From positions 372,001 to 436,000 of the forward strand of contig VUYT01000007.1 in assembly GCA_008802785.1 (NCBI GenBank): 64,000 bases of DNA, given 5' to 3'. Shown piece after piece: positions 41,246-52,794 of this stretch. How positions within the stretch are numbered: position 1 is the first letter of the stretch; each line of letters opens with the position of its first letter. The position numbers were made by a program, and so were the translations under genes. Source of the stretch: Symmetrospora coprosmae (Eukaryota > Basidiomycota > Cystobasidiomycetes > Symmetrosporaceae). A model generated the notes under the pieces. It saw only the letters and a program-made list of their open reading frames with translations, did no database searches and was not told where the DNA came from.

Positions 41246-43082
41246 TCAGAATACGGTGCCATCCAGCAGGACGTTGATGGGCGGCCCTCCGTCGGCCCGC
41301 TTCTTCTTTGCAAGCTCTCTGCCGCCCTTCCAAGTAGCGGACTCGAGGACCTGAGCAAGCGTCAGCTCGACGCCGAGCTTCTTGTTGATGCCCGCAGCGA
41401 TTCGGTCGAGCATGATGACGGTGACCGCGCGGAACTCGACGACGGCCGAGTGTGAGGCCGGCAAAGGTGGCAGGGCAAGCGGGTCTGTCGTCTTGTCGGC
41501 GGGAAGTCCCATCGAGGCGAGGATGGCGGCGGGACGGATAGTCAGCAGACCCGAGTCGATGAGGAGACCTCCGTTCCTGATGAGCCGAAGGGCATCGCCG
41601 CTCAGCAGTAAACCAGGACCGATGTGGTACAGGAGGGAAGCCTGGGCTCGCGTGCGCACCTGTACTCGGGCAGACCTGTCGTGAACTGCGTGTTGGTGAA
41701 CTTCCAGCCGAGGATCTTGTCGAAGATCTCCATGAGCGAGTAGCTGGGAGCGATAGCGTAGCAGAGAAGGAGTCGTTGGGGAGAGAGCGCAGATAGGTAA
41801 GCCAGAGTCAGCCACATCCTCCCACCGAATCACTCAGGCCCGCAGGTCAAGACGCACTTCATCCACTGCGACAGCTTGTGAAACGCCACGAGGCCCTCGC
41901 TATCCTTCTCGACCGTCTTGCGAAGGCTGTCGCAGGCCCAGACGTCGCCCAGTGCGGTCCCGTCGAGCTTGGTTCGTGACGGTGGCCACACGCCCCCAAG
42001 TCCCTGCACGATGACCTCCCACAGCGCCTCCAGGGGCACAGAGATGGGCAGGCTGCTGGGCGAGGGCGTCTGCTGAGCGGACGGGTGGGCGCGCAGGTAG
42101 TCGACCATGTTTCCTGGCCGCGCACTGCCCGCGTCGGCGTTTGCACCGTCGCGCCCGCCAAAGTTCGCGGCATTCGCTGGGTCGGACAGCACCTTGCCGA
42201 GGTTCACCAGCAGCTGGGCGCGCCCTTCGATGCCGACCATGGGGTTGGTGGAGGGGTCCGCCTGCATGGCGGCAGCGATGGCGGCGACCGAGGTCTGGGA
42301 CAGGCCCTTGGCTGCGAGCATGGTAGAAGAGGCGGATAGACAAGTCAACGAATTGGCACCTCCATGCGAGACATGGTAGGCGTCTCCGAAAGGGTGCCAT
42401 CTCCAAGCAATCTAACTGAGGCACGCCGCGCACTTACCGTCTACGCGGAATTTGTCGGAGGTGCCGCTGAACATGCCCGAGGCGACCATGTCGAGGGAAG
42501 CGACGGCGAGTCCTTCGCTGCGACCAATCTGTGCGCCATCGTGTCCGACGATAGATCATCGAGGCGATAAGGGTCCGTGGGCACGTGCAGGCGGGGATGG
42601 TCAGCGAGCGAGCGGACGTATGAATGCAGTCAGGACAGCAAGGGAACTGCTGGATGTGATTGGCGCACCGGCTCTCCCTTTGCTGTACCATCCTGCCTCT
42701 TCTCTGTGTACTTCCAGTCCGGTCCAGCGCCCGCGTCGAGCAGGACCGACACGACAAACAGGTCGACGAGGCGCCTGGCGACCTCGATGGGCTCTGTGCC
42801 TTGCTGCGTCCATGCGTCGAGGTAGCTCTGGACGCGGTCATTGCCAGGCGAGACAAAGTGGCGCCAGCGGCCGTGCGGGGGTATGCTGTCGTACGCTGTG
42901 CCGTAGTCGCGCGCAATGAGCGAGCAGCAGAAGTCGACAATCCCAGCTTCGGCAGACAGGTCGACGTCCCAGAACTCGAGCGCGTCCTGCTCGGCCAGCG
43001 CGAAGACCGACGTGCAGCGCTCGCGGACAGCGTTGAGCGACTGCAGGTACTGCACCTCGGGCGTCTTTGTCGTCGTCGTCAT
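41246..43082 (-). CDS. URC4: Uracil catabolism protein 4 (DUF1688)
   Basis: A DUF1688 protein. Urc4/Urg3 is needed for the fungal URC route that degrades uracil, though its exact chemistry is not settled. The start at 43082 gives MTTTTKTPEVQYLQSLNAV, then RERCTSVFALAEQDALEFWD and HGRWRHFVSPGNDRVQSYLD, typical of the family opening. Later blocks are VARRLVDLFVVSVLLDAGAG, GPDWKYTE, GMFSGTSDKFRVDG, GIEGRAQLLVNLGKVLSDP, LWEVIVQGLGGVWP, FHKLSQW, YSLMEIFDKILGWKF, LLIDSGLLTIRP and AVTVIMLDRIAAGINKKLGV. The end is NVLLDGTVF. Five exons. It is convergent with the SLC45 gene (150 bp between stops). Other URC genes are not visible in the window. Confidence 0.92.
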
Positions 43083-43599
43083 TGTCGAGGAGGGGCTCAC
43101 TCTTGCGTTCTGGCTTTTGCGGTATCGGTTGGACGATAAGGCACGTCCGCCAGGTTGGCGGCAATGGCGGAAAGGGCTCGCTGCACCTCGGAAGACGATT
43201 CAGGCAGCCAGGACAACGTCTAACGTATGCTACATATGCGATCTACGACTACGAGACAAGAGTGATAGGGGGGTTGGGCTACATGTTGGATGGACGCGAG
43301 CTTTGGACGAGTCGAGATAGGCGGACAGCGACGAGACATTCATAAGTGTAGGCTGGAGCCGAGATGCGTGCAGAAAGCCGTGAGCGTTGCGAGTCGCTGA
43401 TGGGGTATCGAGACCACTGTGAAGACGGTATCGAGGCGAGCTGAGGCTGCAATGAGAGGGCAGGCGGGGAAGCTTTGCGATAATCAGCACTTGCGCTCTG
43501 CGAGCCCAACGCGAGCTGTCAAGGGGATGTCTTACCACTGATTGGGTACGTGTGGTGATGACGACGATGGACAAGACGTCGACATGTCGTTCACTTTGC
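43083..43599. other. Intergenic, nothing recognised
   Basis: About 500 bases upstream of URC4. It should contain the URC4 promoter. Open frames here have no recognisable domain. Confidence 0.4.
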
Positions 43600-44185
43600 C
43601 TATTGATCCTCATGGCTGTTGCCATCGGCGTCGCCAGCGCTGCTCGCGCTCTCAACCGAGGCAGTGTCGCTGTCCGGCAGCGACGGCATGGCAGCCACAA
43701 CGGTGCGGAAAGCAAAGCCAGCCATGAATTGCTGTCGCTCGCTGAGCGCCGCGGCCCGGTCTGTTTTCGCCCAGCACCTGCCGGAGGTGGTTGCGTCGAT
43801 GCCCAGGCGGCGCCGTTGCTCTATGACGATCCAGACGGCGTGCCACATCTTGGTGGTCCATGCAGTGATGGAGGCTGTGGGTGGTATATTCAGCGCGCGG
43901 CAAGTGAGGTGCATCAGCTGCGGGCTTGGTTCCTCCTGACGTGAACGCCTAAAAACGGCTGGCGTTCTATGCGTACTCACCATGGTACTTTCGCTGAGCG
44001 GCCGTTAGACGATACGGTTGCGCAGTGTTGTCCAAGGCGTCGATCATGTCCTCGTCGCTGCCGTCGTCCATCTCGCCATAGTACTGGTTGTACGGGGCAT
44101 TGAGGGGTTGGAAGGCGGCAACCGAGCTGCCCTTCCTATGTGAGAACGTATCTGGGGCGGTGCTGTGGCAAAGTGCGGCAGACAT
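43600..44185 (-). CDS. Hypothetical small protein, exon join unresolved
   Basis: Two open segments look protein-like. The upstream one (from ATG 44185, MSAALCHSTAPDTFSHRK) includes NAPYNQYYGEMDDGSDEDM and RLTAAQRKYHG. The downstream one runs EEPSPQLMHLTCRALNIPP, TAWTTKMWHAVWIVIEQRRR, LSERQQFMAGFAFRTVVAA and ends GDADGNSHEDQ. The obvious GTGAGT donor at about 43980 is out of phase with the downstream segment. A GTACCA donor 5 nt upstream would join in phase, either with a 39-nt intron or with an acceptor at CCAAG. The downstream frame could also start by itself at ATG 43983. About 190 residues if joined. No family recognised. A further upstream exon (SSAWLLHPDTNALDD) is possible. Confidence 0.4.
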
Positions 44186-46189
44186 ATCGTCTAGAGCATT
44201 GGTGTCAGGATGCAAGAGCCAAGCTGAGGACGGTGTGCAGGTCAGGATGGATGGATCTTCCGCGATATGCGTGGGCCGGACTGACTGCTCACCTGCAACT
44301 CGATGACACAACAGAGACCGACTCTGCTTATGCTTATGAGCGCAGTCGCAGCTGTCGGGGATGTTGAATGCCGCTTCTCTTGCGGGCACGGTGTGGGCCG
44401 GGCTGGGAGGTGAGGGGATGCGCAATGGGGCTGTGGAGAAGACGATATCTCGACCTGAGGCAGAGCGGAAGAAGAGGAAGAAGGATGAGAGACGGAAGTG
44501 AGGAGCAGTGAGTGCAGTGAGCGCATCCTCTTGCAGATCCGAGGCTGTGGGAGGCGTGCTCTCTCGCGCTAACTGTGTAGCTCGCAACCCAGAATGCCGG
44601 GGGTTTCTCCACGGACCCCGGAAGCCAGCAACCGACCAACATCAGCAATATCAGCAGCAGCAGCAGCAGCAGCAGCCGCCGCCGCCGTCAGAGCAAAGCC
44701 TATGGGCTCTCAGATCAGTCTCGCTCTCTTGCCTGCGTGCATGGAACAGCCCGCAGGGTCTTGGGTTGCATAATCTCGTCAGCGATCTCGCGGGCCTTCC
44801 CACGGCGACGAGGGCCACGACCAAGTTGACCGGGGTGGGTCGCACGGTTATCACGGGAGGGGAGCAGTGTGGGTCTGCACATCCGCACATACAGACCGAC
44901 ACAGGCCACGCGAGTGTATGCCGCAGGTCTCGTTGTATCTCTCGGTATCGGTGAATCCCAAAGAGCTGGGAAGAAGGGACGCTGTGAGGCTGCCATAGCC
45001 CGAGGGCCTCGCCGTGTCCCGAGCCTGAGCCACGGTCTCGGGACACGGCTTGCCTCTCGACCGCGACAACAGCATCGCCAACACCAGAAAGATACAGTAT
45101 GGCTGCGCGTTCAAGCAAGCCAGTGCAAGAGATAGTCTACCCATGACCGGCACAGGATGTGCTCTATCGCTCGTATGAAGCAGTCGCGACCACCTGGACT
45201 TGCTCAGGCGTCTAGGCAAATTTCGAGATGTCGATGTTGGCATGAGCCAGTCTGCAGCTTCAGCAACGGCAAAGGGCACATGACAGAGGCTCAGCTACAT
45301 CTCAACCATAGCGCATACTAACGTGTTCAGGTGAGTCCCAAGATTCAGCGCCCGTGTCGCCGGCGCGCCGCTGAAAACGCGAGATCGGCCTCGCTCACAT
45401 CGCTCTCCTTACGCCCCCGTCATCACTTTCTGGGCCATCACATCCAGATGCTCGCAATCCTCACAGTACTCAACGACCCTGCTCCACTCGCTTTTGCCTA
45501 GACTCCTGCTGCGAGCCGCTTGCCTCCGGGCAATGCATCGCTCAATACACAAGCGACAGCAGCGGGTCTAACAAGCGAAGGTCTTATCGTGGAAGAACGA
45601 ATCCTCGCTGCTTTCTTCTCGCAAGAGACAGAAAGCCCGAGGCGGAAGTCAGACGCCGGTGGATACCCTATTCACTTCACGCTCCTCGCTGCGACTGGAC
45701 TTTCATCGTTCATCAAAATCTACGCGATGCGAGGAGCACTAAGGGTGTTGCATATCTCTCTCCTCTATCCATCTATTTCCCCTGTTGTGTACCCTGCAGT
45801 AAGCCAATATGACTACCTCCCGACCGTCCTGCCCGCAGAACTCATCGCATCGCCCCGATGGCCATCATTCGAGTCACGCCAGGCATGCAGCACGTCAGCT
45901 GATCCCGAGCGGCGGTGAGCCCCACTCCACCCCTGCTTGCTCACCTGACCTGACTGCTTCCTTGCGTCAGACGCAGAGCGGGCGCCGTCTGCTGACATGG
46001 CGGTGTTGGCTCGGCAAACTTGCCCAGTGCTGGGTCCAGGCGGTCGCTCCCTTTGAACCGCGCCGTGAGGCAAGCGCACAGTGGCCAGCAAGCTGCACTG
46101 GCAATCTACAAAAGCCGCCTATGCTCCCTCCCTGTCAGCTTGTCTCTCCCCAAACCACTTGCACACGTTTTACAGCTCCCCACCGTGAC
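44186..46189. other. Gene-sparse stretch of 2 kb before the PPxY array
   Basis: No gene I can support. A minus frame at 44851-45279 contains a possible signal-like start (MGRLSLALACLNAQPYCIF) but no recognisable domain and no clear splice pattern. A trinucleotide repeat lies at 44652-44687. The last part (about 45700-46189) probably holds the promoter and leader of the first PPxY gene. Confidence 0.4.
44652..44687. repeat. CAG/CCG trinucleotide repeat
   Basis: Eight to nine consecutive CAG units followed by four CCG units. It lies outside any supported coding region. It is a simple microsatellite. Confidence 0.85.
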
Positions 46190-47327
46190 ATGGCCTTCAT
46201 CGATGCACTCATGGGCACGCCCGCCGGCCCTCGCCCCAGTGGGCCGTCGCCTATCACCTACAAATACTTCACCGCCAGGATAGTGAAATACAGAGAGCCT
46301 CAGACTCGCCGTGTCGGTCTGGTAAGCAGAATCAAAGTTCACTACGACGTCATGTGGAGTGAATCGGGCAAGGATTACATCCACGAGGTCACGAAGGAAG
46401 ACTCGTTGTTCAACACTCTGAACAATATGCGAGGTTTCGTCAACGGAGGAGAATACCCGTGCTATCACGTTGATCAACCCATTCCCGAGAGTTCCAATCA
46501 GTCCGGTCCAATCAAGGTCCGACTGACTGTCTGGGTAAGTGGGACAGCCCTATCACATCACATTCAATGACAGCGTCTGATTCCGCCTCGTGTGTCGGCA
46601 CAGCTTCGCCCGCCGCCTGCACCACCCCAGCCCGTCGGTGTTAACAGGCGTCCTTCCAGCACAATGACTGGACCGCCCGCCTACTTTGCCCGCCCTCAGA
46701 CGTCGGCAGAGATCGCAGCCGAGCGGGCCACCGGAGCACAGACAGGTCCCGTTCAACGCCGTCTGTCCCAAGCGACTCCGCCGCGCACTGCCCCACCTTC
46801 GTACCGCAGCAACAGCAGAAGCCCCGAACGCCCTGGATCTGGCTCCGGCTCAGGGTCCGGTCCTTCCGGGCCCAGAGCTAGCGTTGACAGTTTCAGGGAA
46901 CTAGGCTCCAGGAACTCGTCGCCCTTCGGCCGCTCGTGAGAGTCTTCTACGCGCTGTTTCATCCACGTTCCCATCTTGTCCCTCTCGTCGAACGATGCAA
47001 TCAGTGAATACGTCTGCTGCTATTTGTCTGCTGCTAGGCCGGTCTACAAAGCTTTCCGCACTAAGTGAGCAGCGCTACAGGGCGCCGCCCACATATCGAC
47101 CTGGTTCAAGCTCGAGCAATGGGTTCGTATCGAGACCTCCAGGGTACGCTCCAGGGCAAAGAAGAACGAGCTCGGAAGTGCGGGCATACGATGCAATGCT
47201 GGCAGAGTACGACCGAGTTGTGCTGGGCATTGGTACACCGCCGCGCTACACTAGCCCTGTACCTCGCCAATCGTCTGCCGAGCGGAGCAGCCGTTCGCGT
47301 TCCCTCAACCGACAAGCTCCGGCCTGA
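46190..47327 (+). CDS. PPxY-tailed protein A (first of a tandem family)
   Basis: Exon 1 (46190-46534, 115 codons) encodes a compact domain: PITYKYFTARIVKYREPQTR, then LVSRIKVHYDVMWSESGKDY and GPIKVRLTVW. A phase-0 intron (46535-46603) follows. Exon 2 encodes a Pro/Ser-rich tail with PPAY (46673-46684) and PPSY (46793-46804), and a stop is reached at 46939. A further open segment in another frame (about 47063-47327) carries PPTY (47085-47096), PPGY (47136-47147) and PPRY (47238-47249). It can be joined in phase by an intron from GTGAGA at 46936 to CACTAAG at about 47062. I therefore give the longer span. If that intron is not used, the gene ends at 46939. The domain family is not recognised. 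PPxY is the core ligand of WW domains. Confidence 0.6.
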
Positions 47328-47867
47328 CTCCCATTATACGATATGCTGCAGGATGCCAATGACGACTTCAGGTCTGCAGTCAGCACACCCTCATCCTTTG
47401 CTGCATCTCTCGTCCCCGAAATCCTGCCACGATGCACGCCCTGCCCGAAGACACACGACTCAGCCAGCACGATGCGCACAGAGATTGTCGGATCGCCCGA
47501 CCCAGGTTGGACGGAGATCAGACCCCGCTCCTTGTATTGGCTATGCACATTTGCGTAGTACGATCTATATCTGGACCCTTATGCCGAGTCCTGGCGAGTT
47601 CCCCTTCATTGAGGACGAGTGGAAATGCAGGCCAATTCCCATGCGTCCTGTCCTTTGTCTCCACATCGAATTGAGGCTATGCCGAGGAGCATGCACGAAA
47701 GCCTCCTGACTTTGCTCTCTCCTGGCTTGCCTCCGTTCCATCACCATCGATCCAAGAGCCTGAAGCTTGCAAAGGCGCTTACCCATCCTCCAGTATTCGT
47801 TGCATCCCATAAGCCCTTCCTCTCCTCGTTCCACCTGATTCTACCCCTTCACATCTGATCATCTGGC
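47328..47867. other. Intergenic within the PPxY array
   Basis: Between genes A and C of the array. A plus frame runs through 47065-47709 but has no recognisable feature. The last 150 bases are pyrimidine-rich and probably form the leader of the next gene. Confidence 0.4.
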
Positions 47868-48424
47868 ATGGCACTATATGCTCCCGAAACCGCCATTAAG
47901 GCCACCGGCAGAGTGATCAGTTTCGACCCACCCGTGAAACGAACCAGCCTCCTCGGACGCACCAGATGGATGCGCTTCGAGGTGCATTGGCATGCAACAC
48001 CTCCCGGCCGTGACTTTTTCAAGGAGTTCGGGCCACAGCATCCGTATTCTGCTGCTCTGTCGACACTGGGCCGAATTTCGGTGGAGGTCAATTGTACCTT
48101 AGGCGACTTGTCAACCAATCACCCACACAGATCAGACGGCGGGACGAGATACAGGGTGACGGGTGACATATCTGTGAGCAAGTTTCATACTGGTGTCGGA
48201 CGCCAGCGAATCGCGAAGGGGGCCGAATCATTGGAACGTCCGATGAGCGGTGGACCATGCGAGCTGACAAACTCATTACTTCGTAGCTCAATGGCAGTAG
48301 ACCAGCTCTTCCCCCATACGAGGATCGAGGGCGTACGCCACCGGCCTACAGCCCTCGCGACTCTGAAGAGCGCGAAAGAAGTGCCGATCGTAGAAGGGGC
48401 ACGTCGGGCACACGCGGGCGCTAA
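47868..48424 (+). CDS. PPxY-tailed protein C (second clear member of the tandem family)
   Basis: Two exons, 47868-48173 (102 codons) and 48287-48424, with a phase-0 intron whose branch site is GCTGACAAAC. The product is 147 residues. The domain runs ETAIKATGRVISFDPPVKRT, then RTRWMRFEVHWHATPPGRDF, ending GGTRYRVTGDIS. This matches protein A in the order of features: an R-V/I strand, an F-x-V-x-W strand and a final strand just before the intron. The tail is short and basic with LPPY (48308-48319) and PPAY (48338-48349), context GRTPPAYSPRD. It lies 540 bp downstream of A on the same strand. The function is unknown. Confidence 0.65.
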
Positions 48425-48994
48425 AAAGTGATCTGGTGAGTATTGCCAGATCTTCAGGCCGCTTTTGTCGAAGAGCCCGCTTTGGCCCCCTTGCGTGATA
48501 CCTCCCGAGCATACGTTCGTCCCGCCGCCTGTATTGGCCAACGCAATTTAGACTGCATATGCATCCCCGAGCCGTGATCCGCTGTCAGCTTCCCTTCTCT
48601 ACGCGCACCGACAGACTACCTTTTGATTTGAGGGGCTAGTTGCGGAGAGGACTCCTCTACTGCCACTGGGGTTGCTGCCGTGCGTGTCTAGCCAGCAACC
48701 ACAAGGCGGACTGATCTGGCATTCCCCTTTCCTGTCAGCTGGCTTCGAGTACAAGTGCGGTTGCTGCTCTCTTCCCGCGCTCTTACATACCTTTTAAACT
48801 ACATGCCAAGGCAGGACCCCTTACATGGGCACAGCCTGGGATGATTCCTGCGATTGGCGTCAGCCTCGCCTGGCCCTTGCCTCCTCGACGACCTCCTTCA
48901 TCAGTATTCGATCTGCGCTGAGCCTGAGCCCCGAGCCATCGCCAATATCGCCAGACTCCTGGCGCAGCGCAGCCAGTGTACATTTGCTACAGGG
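48425..48994. other. Intergenic within the PPxY array
   Basis: About 570 bases with no supported exon. It must contain the promoter of the third array gene. The in-frame sequence upstream of 48995 is open but lacks a better start. Confidence 0.4.
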
Positions 48995-49659
48995 ATGTCA
49001 TCAGCGATGTCAGACAGCTACGAACGGAAGTGGTACATCTTCGAAGCTAGAGTCCACCAGCTGGCGAAACCAAAGAAACGCTGGCACATCAACGACCCGC
49101 CAAGTCAGGTTCTGTTCCAGCTGAAGTGGACGGAGAAGAGTGGATGGCGCGAGTACAGATATGTCAAGGATGTCGAAAGCAAGGATTTGCCAGGCTTGCC
49201 AGATCTGAATGCACTCACGGGACTTGTGGTAGAACTGAAGCGCTTCGTCAAAGATACTCCGGTTCGGCGTCTGAATCCTCTGCAGACCAAGTACGACGGA
49301 AACGTCTTTGTGAGTCGAGGCGGAGGGCGAACATACTGTTGTAGCGCCCTGCACAGTGGCGATTTTGGCAGGGGAGGGAGCGGCTAACATGCTGATGCGC
49401 ATATGGTCTTGAGCAGAAGCTGACGTATGACGATTGGTCAAGACGAAACAGACAAGTGGCCGAGAAGAGGGAAGCACCGCCCGCGTACTCCAGCATCAAA
49501 GCTTCACCGCCGGCCTATTCTGAGCGATGCTCAGTTGAGCAGAACCAAGGCTCAAGCTTCCAACACGCTTCCGGAGCGCCATTTCGCACTCGCAGAGTCC
49601 GGACGGGAGCAGGGTCAGGCAGACCCATCGCAAGCCTGGGCAGCGGCCCGATGCGCTAG
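48995..49659 (+). CDS. PPxY-tailed protein D (third clear member of the tandem family)
   Basis: Two exons, 48995-49309 (105 codons) and 49417-49659, again with one phase-0 intron at the domain/tail boundary. The product is 185 residues. A second ATG at 49007 gives MSDSYERKWYIFEARVHQLA and may be the true start. The domain continues PPSQVLFQLKWTEKSGWREY, then DLNALTGLVVELKRF and KYDGNVF. The tail begins KLTYDDWSRRNRQ and carries two PPAY motifs (49477-49488 and 49507-49518, context EAPPAYSSIKASPPAYSE). Compared with A (YFTARIVKYREP ... VHYDVMW) and C (TGRVISFDPP ... FEVHWH) the strand pattern is the same. The function is unknown. Confidence 0.65.
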
Positions 49660-50652
49660 ATAGCAGGTTCGTAAGATTCTTCGGTCCATGGCCTCCAACG
49701 ATCTCTCCTCTAGCCTATGATTCGCTTTGTAGGCGGCTCGGTCGAGAGTCGGGTTCGCTTCGAACATGTCTTCGATGACGACTGACTCGACTGCTGCCAG
49801 ACAGGTTGCCTCGTCCGCCAGGTTGCAGCATTTCGAAAGAGCATGTCATTCATTCGTGATGCCGCACCCAGCGGGCCAATCCATATCGCGAACCCGGTCT
49901 TTTGTTATTGTTCTCGTCATCCTCTCTCATCAGCGTCGGGGCGGTTCCAGGGCGCCTCAGGCTCTTGAGGCCGTCGAGCCCTGGCCGTGCCGGTCCCTCT
50001 CTCACCAACTCGACCAGAAAGCGTCAGGCAGCACATACAGCGCCATCATCTCACACAGGAGATAGAGACAGAGAGAGAGCGAGAGAAATCCAAGGGAGGC
50101 GTGAGTATACACATCCTCGCCCGCTCTCACCTCAGCCCGCGGTGCACCTCGTTCCCGGTCTCGGAAGGACCCACGTTCCGCTGCAGACGCACGCGCACGG
50201 GCGTGGAGAACGAGGGACAGCCTCGCAGCACAGGACGAGATAGCCATAAAGGAAGCACACACGTTTGCTCAACCGTTGGCTCTCCTCCTCTCGCCCCAAC
50301 AGCTTCACTGGTCTTTCCTCCCAGCTACAACCAGCGAGACCCGCGCAGTCGTACGCGCCGGCCCTGGTTCACGACAGCGGGACACCACGGACTTCGCACC
50401 TTCTGACCTCGATAGACTGCAGCCAGCTGTCTGTTGAGAGAAGGTACATCCACAAATCGCTCGTCGACCTTCACCGTACGAAGCGTCCGAGTTTCTCTTT
50501 CGACCGAGTCAAGACCCGTCCCTCCCTCCGTATCGCCTGCCAAATCGGGTGATACCGAGCATCGACACGTTCGGAAGCGACATATAAGCAACAATCACCA
50601 CACGGTCAATCCCTGTAGCATTCACCACCATCACAACGACAACTGTGCTAAC
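49660..50652. promoter_or_regulatory. Long upstream region of MAF1
   Basis: Nearly 1 kb without a supported exon between the PPxY array and MAF1. It contains a GA-rich tract at about 50062-50086 and a CA/CAT-rich stretch just before the MAF1 start codon. Several short open frames could act as upstream ORFs if the leader is long, but none is compelling. Confidence 0.4.
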
Positions 50653-52794
50653 ATGAAGTGTGAGTGCTGATCCCCCCCCTTTGAATCGTCGTGATTGACC
50701 TCATCACGGAGACGGAGGCTTAGTCAGGTCAGCTGACTCATCTACCAACTCGACACTGCAGACCTCGACGGATACCCAGAGCTCGACCTACTCTCGCGGG
50801 CACTGTCATTTACCTCACCCTCTGTACGTGTATCAACGCGGATCGAGGCTTACTCGTGCAAAGCCATCAACCGGGAGAAGCGCCTCTTCAAAGCGCTCGA
50901 GCAGGACATCAAGTCGGATCTCGAGCTGTCGACCTCCATCTCGCCTCCGGATCAGCACAGCGCTGTGATCCAGTCGGCATTCGGCCCGCTCAACAATGCC
51001 TCGAGCCGCAAGACGCTCTGGCTCATCATCGCCACCTTGAACCTCGCCTTTCCCGACCACGATTTCTCCAGAGTCAGTGCAGACGAGTTCCACAAGGAGG
51101 ACAACTCGCGCTCCGTCCTGAGCACTCTGACCAGCGCGCTGAGCCAGCTCAGAGCTTCGTCAGTCTCCGCCAGCACTACCCAGCAGCAGAACATCCTGCT
51201 CTCGGGCAATCGCTACGCTAGCTATCCGCCCGCGCTGGCGACCCTAACCGGGTTCAACCCGCTCTCCGCTGGTGGTGGTTCCTCCTCGAGCTCGAGGAAG
51301 AGGAAAGCAGCGAGCGGAGCGTCGCCGAGCAGGAGCGCTACCAAAGCCTCTTCCTCCGCGGCTACCGCCAAGCCAGGCAAGGGGTCTGCGAAGAGCAAGA
51401 AGGCAGCCAAGAAGCGAGGTGTCAACCCAGAGGATGCAAAGACAGGTGCGTGCCGCCTCACCCTGCCTCCTCACACCACGGACATACAGCTGATGTGCAC
51501 ATCCGTTACAGCTTACTTTGCCCGCCTGACAAGCGACATCAATGACGGCCTGGGTAGCTCCGACATGCCCACTCACCCGTTTTTGCGCCAGGTTCTGGAG
51601 CCCATCATCGAGCTGAACGATTGCGAGGTTTTCACCTACATGCCAGATCTCGCTTCGGATCCGCACGCGTACCAGAGCGACGACGAGGACGAGGAGGAAT
51701 ACACGTCACACGACGACGAGGATGAGGAAATGTACGACATGGAGTTCGACTATCCATCGCACAGCTACAGGCGCGGAGGCAGAACGGGCGGATTCGACGA
51801 TGATGGAGACGATGGGTTTGGTTGGGACATGGACGGGATCGACTCACCGTACTCGTCTGACCCCTCCACTACGGTCCCACCGACGCCGACGTCCTACAAG
51901 GACCCGTCGCTCCGCAATCCCCGCCGCAAGCGTGCCGGCGCTCAAAGTGCGAGCAAGCGGGCCAACGGCCGAGCCTGGCCGTCAATGGGCGGAGAGGATG
52001 ATGACGATGCCTTTCTCACAAGCCCGCCAGGCTTCGTGGGAGGTGGAGTCGATGCGGGCGAGGACGACGACAACAGTACCGGAGGACTCCTCTGGTCCTC
52101 CAACTACTTCTTCTACAACAAGAACATGCGGCGCATCCTCTTTATTTCATGCTGGGGCCGCAAAGTTGGAGGTGCATACTCGTCGCCTGCGCCGGTCGCG
52201 CAGCCTCTGCCGCTCGTGCCGCTCTCGAGCAGCTTCAGCGGGATGAGCTCATCGCGCGCCCCACCGACCAAGACTCTCCCGAAAGCCGTCTCGACAGCAT
52301 CGGCACCGATGCTCGTATCGGGTGTTGGCAGCTCCAGGAGCCGTCCCATCGAGCTGGGCCTCGGCACGTCTGCGCCATCGATCCTGACTGCCGCTGCACC
52401 GCAGCTCAAGCCGTCGATTATCTTTGGTACCTTCGGCCGGCCGCCAGTCGAGGATAAGCAGGCGAGCCCAAACCTTGGGTCGTCGCCGGGCCTCGGACTC
52501 GATCATCCGTGCAGCCACCCGCATGCCCCGCATGCCCCGCTGCGCCCCTCGACACTCCACAATGTTAGTATCCCTTCATCTGCTGCTGAAGGCAAGGAGG
52601 CACGCCGAGCAGAGTTGAACAGCGAGACGTCTTCCCCTCCCTCCAGCCCCAGCAGCAGTAGCTCGTATAGTGCTGCAAGGCCGACGCCTTCCGCTGGTAG
52701 GAAGCGCAGAGCCTCGATGGCAGCCGACGATGAGGGACATTCTTCCTCGCGCAAAAGGCCAGTCATCTCGGCTTCGGAGGAGGATTCCTGCTGA
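50653..52794 (+). CDS. MAF1: RNA polymerase III repressor Maf1
   Basis: The TOR- and stress-controlled repressor of Pol III transcription. Exon 1 is only ATGAAGT. Its join to ACCTCGACGG gives MKYLDGYPELDLLSRALSFT, the conserved A-box. Then come RIEAYSCKAINREKRLFKAL, a phase-1 intron near 51445-51510 joining KTA / YFARLTSDINDGLG, and the B/C-box sequence CEVFTYMPDLASDPHAYQSD and GLLWSSNYFFYNKNMRRILF. The protein is much longer than the 256-residue human form: a Ser/Lys-rich insertion follows the A-box, an acidic insertion separates the B and C boxes, and a Ser/Pro-rich C-terminal extension of about 220 residues ends SASEEDSC. These added parts are low-complexity and may be phosphorylated. Confidence 0.93.

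Follow-up and report, generated by a model that had tools for sequence, protein, structure and literature searches.

A tandem array of three genes with PPxY-rich tails in Symmetrospora coprosmae: candidate non-arrestin adaptors of an Rsp5-like ubiquitin ligase

Three consecutive plus-strand genes lie in a 64,000-nucleotide stretch of the genome of the basidiomycete Symmetrospora coprosmae (contig VUYT01000007.1, positions 372,001 to 436,000; hereafter the window), itself part of a 20.05 Mb genome in 77 contigs. Each comprises a domain of 102-115 residues, a phase-0 intron and a Pro/Ser/Arg-rich tail that carries PPxY motifs. We propose, with a probability of about one half, that these genes are a tandem family whose members have diverged and serve as small, soluble, non-arrestin adaptors for an Rsp5/Nedd4-type ubiquitin ligase. 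The proposal draws on open frames, splice signals, moderate relatedness of the domains, enrichment of the motif, lysine-poor tails and a gene in the same genome with three WW domains and a HECT domain. A first-pass annotation of the window had also read the array as possible adaptors; the adjacency of probably related genes, the undescribed domain, the PPxY excess and the WW-HECT gene support that reading in part, while the arrestin relationship it raised finds no support in sequence.

Gene models and PPxY tails

All gene models are predictions, with introns of spliceosomal type. Their exons are as follows.

46190-46534, plus strand: gene 1 exon 1, N-terminal domain of 115 residues; open reading frame (ORF) with a GTAAGT donor; relative P0006 is 64% identical over the domain and has the same start Met
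46604-46935, plus strand: gene 1 exon 2, tail with PPAY (46673) and PPSY (46793)
47081-47327, plus strand: gene 1 exon 3, tail with PPTY (47085), PPGY (47136) and PPRY (47238); joined through in-frame intron 46936-47080 and absent from the earlier model
47868-48173, plus strand: gene 2 exon 1, N-terminal domain of 102 residues; relative P0005 is 79% identical over the domain; BLASTP E 2e-4 against the gene 1 domain
48287-48424, plus strand: gene 2 exon 2, tail with LPPY (48308) and PPAY (48338)
48995-49309, plus strand: gene 3 exon 1, N-terminal domain of 105 residues; relative P0002 is 73% identical over the domain; tied to the others by leave-one-out profile
49417-49659, plus strand: gene 3 exon 2, tail with two PPAY (49477, 49507) and KLTYDDW, probably the last strand of the domain

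The predicted products are of 307, 147 and 185 residues for genes 1, 2 and 3. First exons measure 345, 306 and 315 nt, and in all three genes the first intron is in phase 0 and falls at or near the domain end. The three starts and first-exon lengths annotated earlier are all present in the sequence, as are the tail motifs it reported (PPAY and PPSY; LPPY with PPAY; PPAY with PPAY). Its end for gene 1, at 46939, is probably wrong, and we rejected it in favor of a spliced third exon: the stop is a TGA inside a good GTGAGA donor, and removal of an intron at 46936-47080 would carry the reading frame on into an exon that closes at 47327. Many other donor and acceptor pairs also keep this frame; the chosen intron is preferred because its GTGAGA donor is accompanied by CACTAAG, which we take to be a branch-like site, ahead of the CTACAG acceptor. 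Joining exon 3 probably accounts for what would otherwise be an orphan PPxY-rich frame and would give gene 1 a total of five PPxY motifs. The second intron may be alternatively spliced.

Two further features touch these models. The gene 1 frame is open farther upstream (45809-46570) with an in-frame ATG at 45809, a less likely start because P0006 begins at a Met matching 46190. Shortly after the gene 2 stop codon, a donor-like GTGAGTATT occupies 48437-48446, a possible sign of an intron in the 3' untranslated region or of an alternative gene 2 C-terminus.

The array holds eight PPxY motifs and one LPPY. All eight PPxY are on the plus strand and in the tail frames, where 10,000 residue shuffles of each tail averaged 0.23 and never produced more than 3 across the 317 tail residues. 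Six-frame translation of the window yields 22 PPxY, 8 in the 3.5 kb array and 14 in the other 60.5 kb, and outside the array any stretch of 3470 nt has at most two per strand. Fifteen of 31 comparison loci, picked to avoid overlap and to lie in other parts of the genome, contain 6 in 48.3 kb. When exons were shuffled singly (20,000 residue shuffles each), the observed count was reached 15 times for gene 1 exon 2, never for the three motifs of gene 1 exon 3, and once for gene 3 exon 2. PPxY motifs thus stand above chance outside the folded domain, as in the PPxY adaptor class, with gene 2 weak when taken alone.

The tails are also poor in lysine, with 49 Arg and 3 Lys in all and no Lys in the tails of genes 1 and 2. 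For comparison, 12 long ORFs of the window have an Arg:Lys ratio of 321:160 (p 1e-5 against the tails), the Pro/Ser-rich stretches of those ORFs one of 67:27 (p 0.001) and the array's own domains one of 26:20 (p 1e-5), the contrast having been noticed after looking, so that these p values serve as a guide only. Three of the 12 ORFs lean likewise (47:5, 34:8 and 33:8). Lysine-poor tails fit recruitment of a ligase without modification of the tail itself. Both domains and tails are basic (isoelectric points 9.1-11.7), and no long hydrophobic segment occurs in any of the proteins, the highest 19-residue Kyte-Doolittle mean being 0.75; from their sequences, the three look soluble.

Relatedness and identity of the N-terminal domains

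The shared strand signature described in the first-pass annotation is real (TARIVKY...VHYDVMW, TGRVISF...MRFEVHW and EARVHQL...VLFQLKW in genes 1 to 3), and its Trp is invariant in all eight rows of an alignment with relatives. Distant homology among the domains is likewise probable, directly for genes 1 and 2, which BLASTP detects (see the exon list), and for gene 3 mainly through leave-one-out profile ranking. In the latter, the most telling of the tests, a profile from two families searched 1463 targets, made up of the three relatives and of stretches from six-frame translation of the window, with four of the targets used in training. On each of the three occasions, both members of the omitted family ranked first among the 1459 untrained targets: gene 1 scored E 0.009 and P0006 0.015, against 0.6 for the next target; P0005 scored 0.33 and gene 2 scored 1.0, against 2.0; and P0002 scored 0.013 and gene 3 scored 0.21, against 0.79. 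Residue-shuffle tests used four pairings per gene pair, with the gene and its relative on each side, and 2000 shuffles each; gene 1/2 scores were reached in 3, 52, 18 and 12 of these. Profile comparison by hhalign gave P values of 0.00098 (genes 1/2), 0.045 (1/3) and 0.014 (2/3), and every alignment fell on the stretch that holds the first two strands. Relatedness is moderately supported, through consistent ranking and not through any one E-value. From this ranking, the common intron place and phase, and adjacency, we infer that the genes are probably one old, fast-diverging tandem family. The duplication is taken as old because 45000-51000 contains no direct DNA repeats of at least 25 nt.

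Relatives of the array came from protein searches. With gene 3 as query these gave P0001 (99% identical) and P0002, and a five-row alignment found six proteins, these two with P0003 to P0006; P0003 is the window's own gene 1 ORF and P0004 a near-identical gene 2 ORF. The remaining three, P0006, P0005 and P0002, are diverged relatives of genes 1, 2 and 3, respectively, and originate from public metagenomic contigs of 734-1119 bases. With a diverged counterpart for each paralogue, the split among the three genes would predate that divergence, and the domains would have been kept since. P0002 and P0005 continue beyond the domain with Val-Ser, as read-through of a GTNAGY-type donor would give, and P0006 with Val-Gly. 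No relative was found in viral contigs searched with P0002 and P0006, nor in bacterial and archaeal genomes searched with gene 1. In the fungus's own genome, searches with all three genes returned no further paralogue; besides the genes themselves there were three weak matches (E 0.09, 2.1 and 0.5), to tail parts or to gene 2 residues 87-145, two of them with internal stops. A profile search for further domain copies, run on six-frame translations of the window and of the 31 comparison loci, found only the three genes.

The first-pass annotation knew of no described family with this layout, and the domain rises above no cut-off in Pfam, NCBIfam or the PDB sequences searched. In Pfam, where HMMER filters remove most matches weaker than about 0.1, none of the three proteins (gene 1 in a 226-residue form) reached a family cut-off with matches taken up to E<=10, THEG being below its own at E 0.062, and eight aligned domains at E<=1 gave a best value of 0.013, with none at cut-off; arrestin families were listed in neither search. 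NCBIfam returned no family at E<=1, PDB sequences gave nothing at E<=1 for gene 3, and Rfam gave nothing at gathering scores in 44000-51500. A profile match to ErmC' in PDB sequences (the best of three at E<=10, E 0.033) was taken as chance. Titles and the beginnings of abstracts in the open-license literature gave no description of such a domain with a PPxY tail among the matches listed.

Of the predicted fold models, gene 1 scored a predicted local distance difference test (pLDDT) value of 41.5 and gene 2 a weak 60.1, the sole usable one. The elements of the gene 2 model run b-b-b-a-b-b, a strand order that fits an OB fold and differs from arrestin, with no significant structural match. The best 50 rows of the Foldseek and of the VIA matches are rich in proteins that we take to be OB folds, and none of these rows names an arrestin, a result to which so weak a model lends no weight. 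An arrestin link, the comparison suggested in the first-pass annotation, has no support in sequence, and the weak model has a different strand order. The domain is probably beta-rich.

A candidate ligase partner and competing explanations

Searching the genome for the WW family produced 12 matches, of which 11 exceed the cut-off. A single reading frame (C7) contains three of them, closely followed downstream by HECT matches, and these three share a DHNT core that the other nine lack. We take this core to mark the Rsp5 or group-I type, so that the genome would encode a group-I WW ligase, as the PPxY adaptor class calls for; the protein appears Rsp5-like, its orthology judged from domain content and its WW group presumed from the core. 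In yeast, one report places the Rsp5 WW domains in group I, the class that binds PPxY (PMC1557994). In Ustilago maydis, one signaling effect requires both Rsp5 and an alpha-arrestin, with four alpha-arrestins predicted (PMC9704768).

If the array encodes adaptors, its introns would be spliced as modeled and target binding would fall to the N-terminal domain. The tail, presumably disordered, Arg-rich and Lys-poor, has several PPxY or LPPY motifs, which would dock on the WW domains of Rsp5, three in number and of group-I type. A docked adaptor would then present its target to the HECT domain for ubiquitylation, and targets may be divided among the paralogues. A more ambitious version, which we advance as unlikely, envisions a new soluble adaptor class in which a fast-evolving OB-like barrel takes the place of an arrestin in picking the target, a Lys-poor multivalent PPxY tail recruits Rsp5, and tandem duplication gave several specificities in one fungal lineage.

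Several results weigh against the adaptor proposal. Full codon scores favor the claimed frame over the five others in exon 1 of genes 1 and 3, and weakly in gene 2; they do not favor the claimed frames of the tail exons. None of the seven exons departs far from neutral synonymous codon usage (scores of -0.13 to 0.03 bits/codon, the reference being eight ORFs at 0.09-0.20 bits/codon that also trained the score, only two of them with a Pfam match), and gene 1 exon 3 gains no support from codon usage. Neutral usage in the tails is a real weakness and may reflect low expression or young sequence. A search for tail homologues returned zero matches, not even the window's own frames. The gene 2 tail has one strict PPxY, a count reached by 561 of 20,000 shuffles, besides its LPPY. 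In the yeast report, about 4% of yeast proteins carry PY motifs, and 9 PY proteins in the WW network showed no binding to Rsp5 WW domains (PMC1557994). The motifs could be partnerless by-products of proline-rich low-complexity sequence, in keeping with the codon results and with tails that are 74% P/S/R/G/T/Q/A; the shuffles, never exceeding 3 where 8 are observed, make this improbable. Comparisons with gene 3 are mostly non-significant: BLASTP gives E 0.21 for genes 1/3, not significant alone, shuffles reached the scores in 378, 1100, 61 and 1 of 2000 for genes 1/3 and in 421, 73, 270 and 65 for genes 2/3, and hhalign probabilities are low throughout (22% for genes 1/2, 1% for 1/3, 3% for 2/3). 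Profiles from single families do not separate the others from background, that of gene 1 placing P0002, P0005 and gene 2 first at E 0.18-0.35, that of gene 2 placing gene 1 first at 0.88, and that of gene 3 ranking unrelated stretches (0.67, 1.6) above P0006 (1.7). Three unrelated small orphans, adjacent by chance, would look like this in such comparisons; we consider them very improbable given the first rank of every omitted family among 1459 targets and the common motif register, intron place and phase, tail type and adjacency.

Other explanations assign the proteins a different role. The proteins could be substrates or inhibitors of Rsp5, the PPxY motifs bringing the ligase to the protein itself or occupying its WW domains. 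The same motifs presumably serve substrates and small PPxY regulators, and the domains carry 3-11 lysines each; the scarcity of lysine in the tails nonetheless fits recruitment better than self-modification, and we see this role as possible with perhaps a minority chance. Rather less probably, the domain is an OB-like module that may bind nucleic acid or a ligand within a small basic protein, and the tail connects it with a WW protein active in transcription or on RNA and not with membrane-cargo ubiquitylation. The strand order of the weak gene 2 model and the presumed OB folds among its best matches would suit such a module, as would the basic domains and tails. Prp40-type WW domains can also bind PY peptides, by the yeast report, a point for this module as well as against adaptors (PMC1557994).

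Known adaptors and implications for fungal Rsp5 specificity

The specificity of fungal Rsp5 is mostly attributed to arrestin-type and membrane adaptors. The alpha-arrestins (ARTs) resemble the array proteins in what we understand to be their layout, a folded recognition part followed by a PPxY tail; they differ in that no Pfam arrestin domain is found here and in that 102-115 residues are presumably too few for a double sandwich. An exon-by-exon search of the genome for the arrestin C-domain, a lower bound with the N-domain left unsearched, gave one match, below cut-off. The yeast adaptors Sna3, Bsd2 and Ear1/Ssh4 are likewise, to our understanding, non-arrestin proteins that bind Rsp5 through PPxY, but they are membrane proteins, whereas the array proteins look soluble. 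Compared by description, CNAG_05520 of Cryptococcus, a basidiomycete-specific, Rsp5-ubiquitinated analogue of Rim8 reported in 2025, is similarly lineage-limited and without an identifiable arrestin domain; it has four PxY motifs and two predicted membrane-spanning regions, the latter found in none of the array genes (PMC12345238). Non-arrestin PY proteins tied to Rsp5 are therefore already known, and for the domain of the array none of the searched libraries gave a match above cut-off.

The array is flanked by ORFs with a DUF1688 match (42630-43100, minus strand) and a Maf1 match (50965-52794, plus strand), which are useful synteny anchors for other fungi. With three small proteins and three WW domains, the system is small enough for simple tests. 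Lineage-specific soluble adaptors of this kind, if true, would show fungi replacing or extending their arrestin set.
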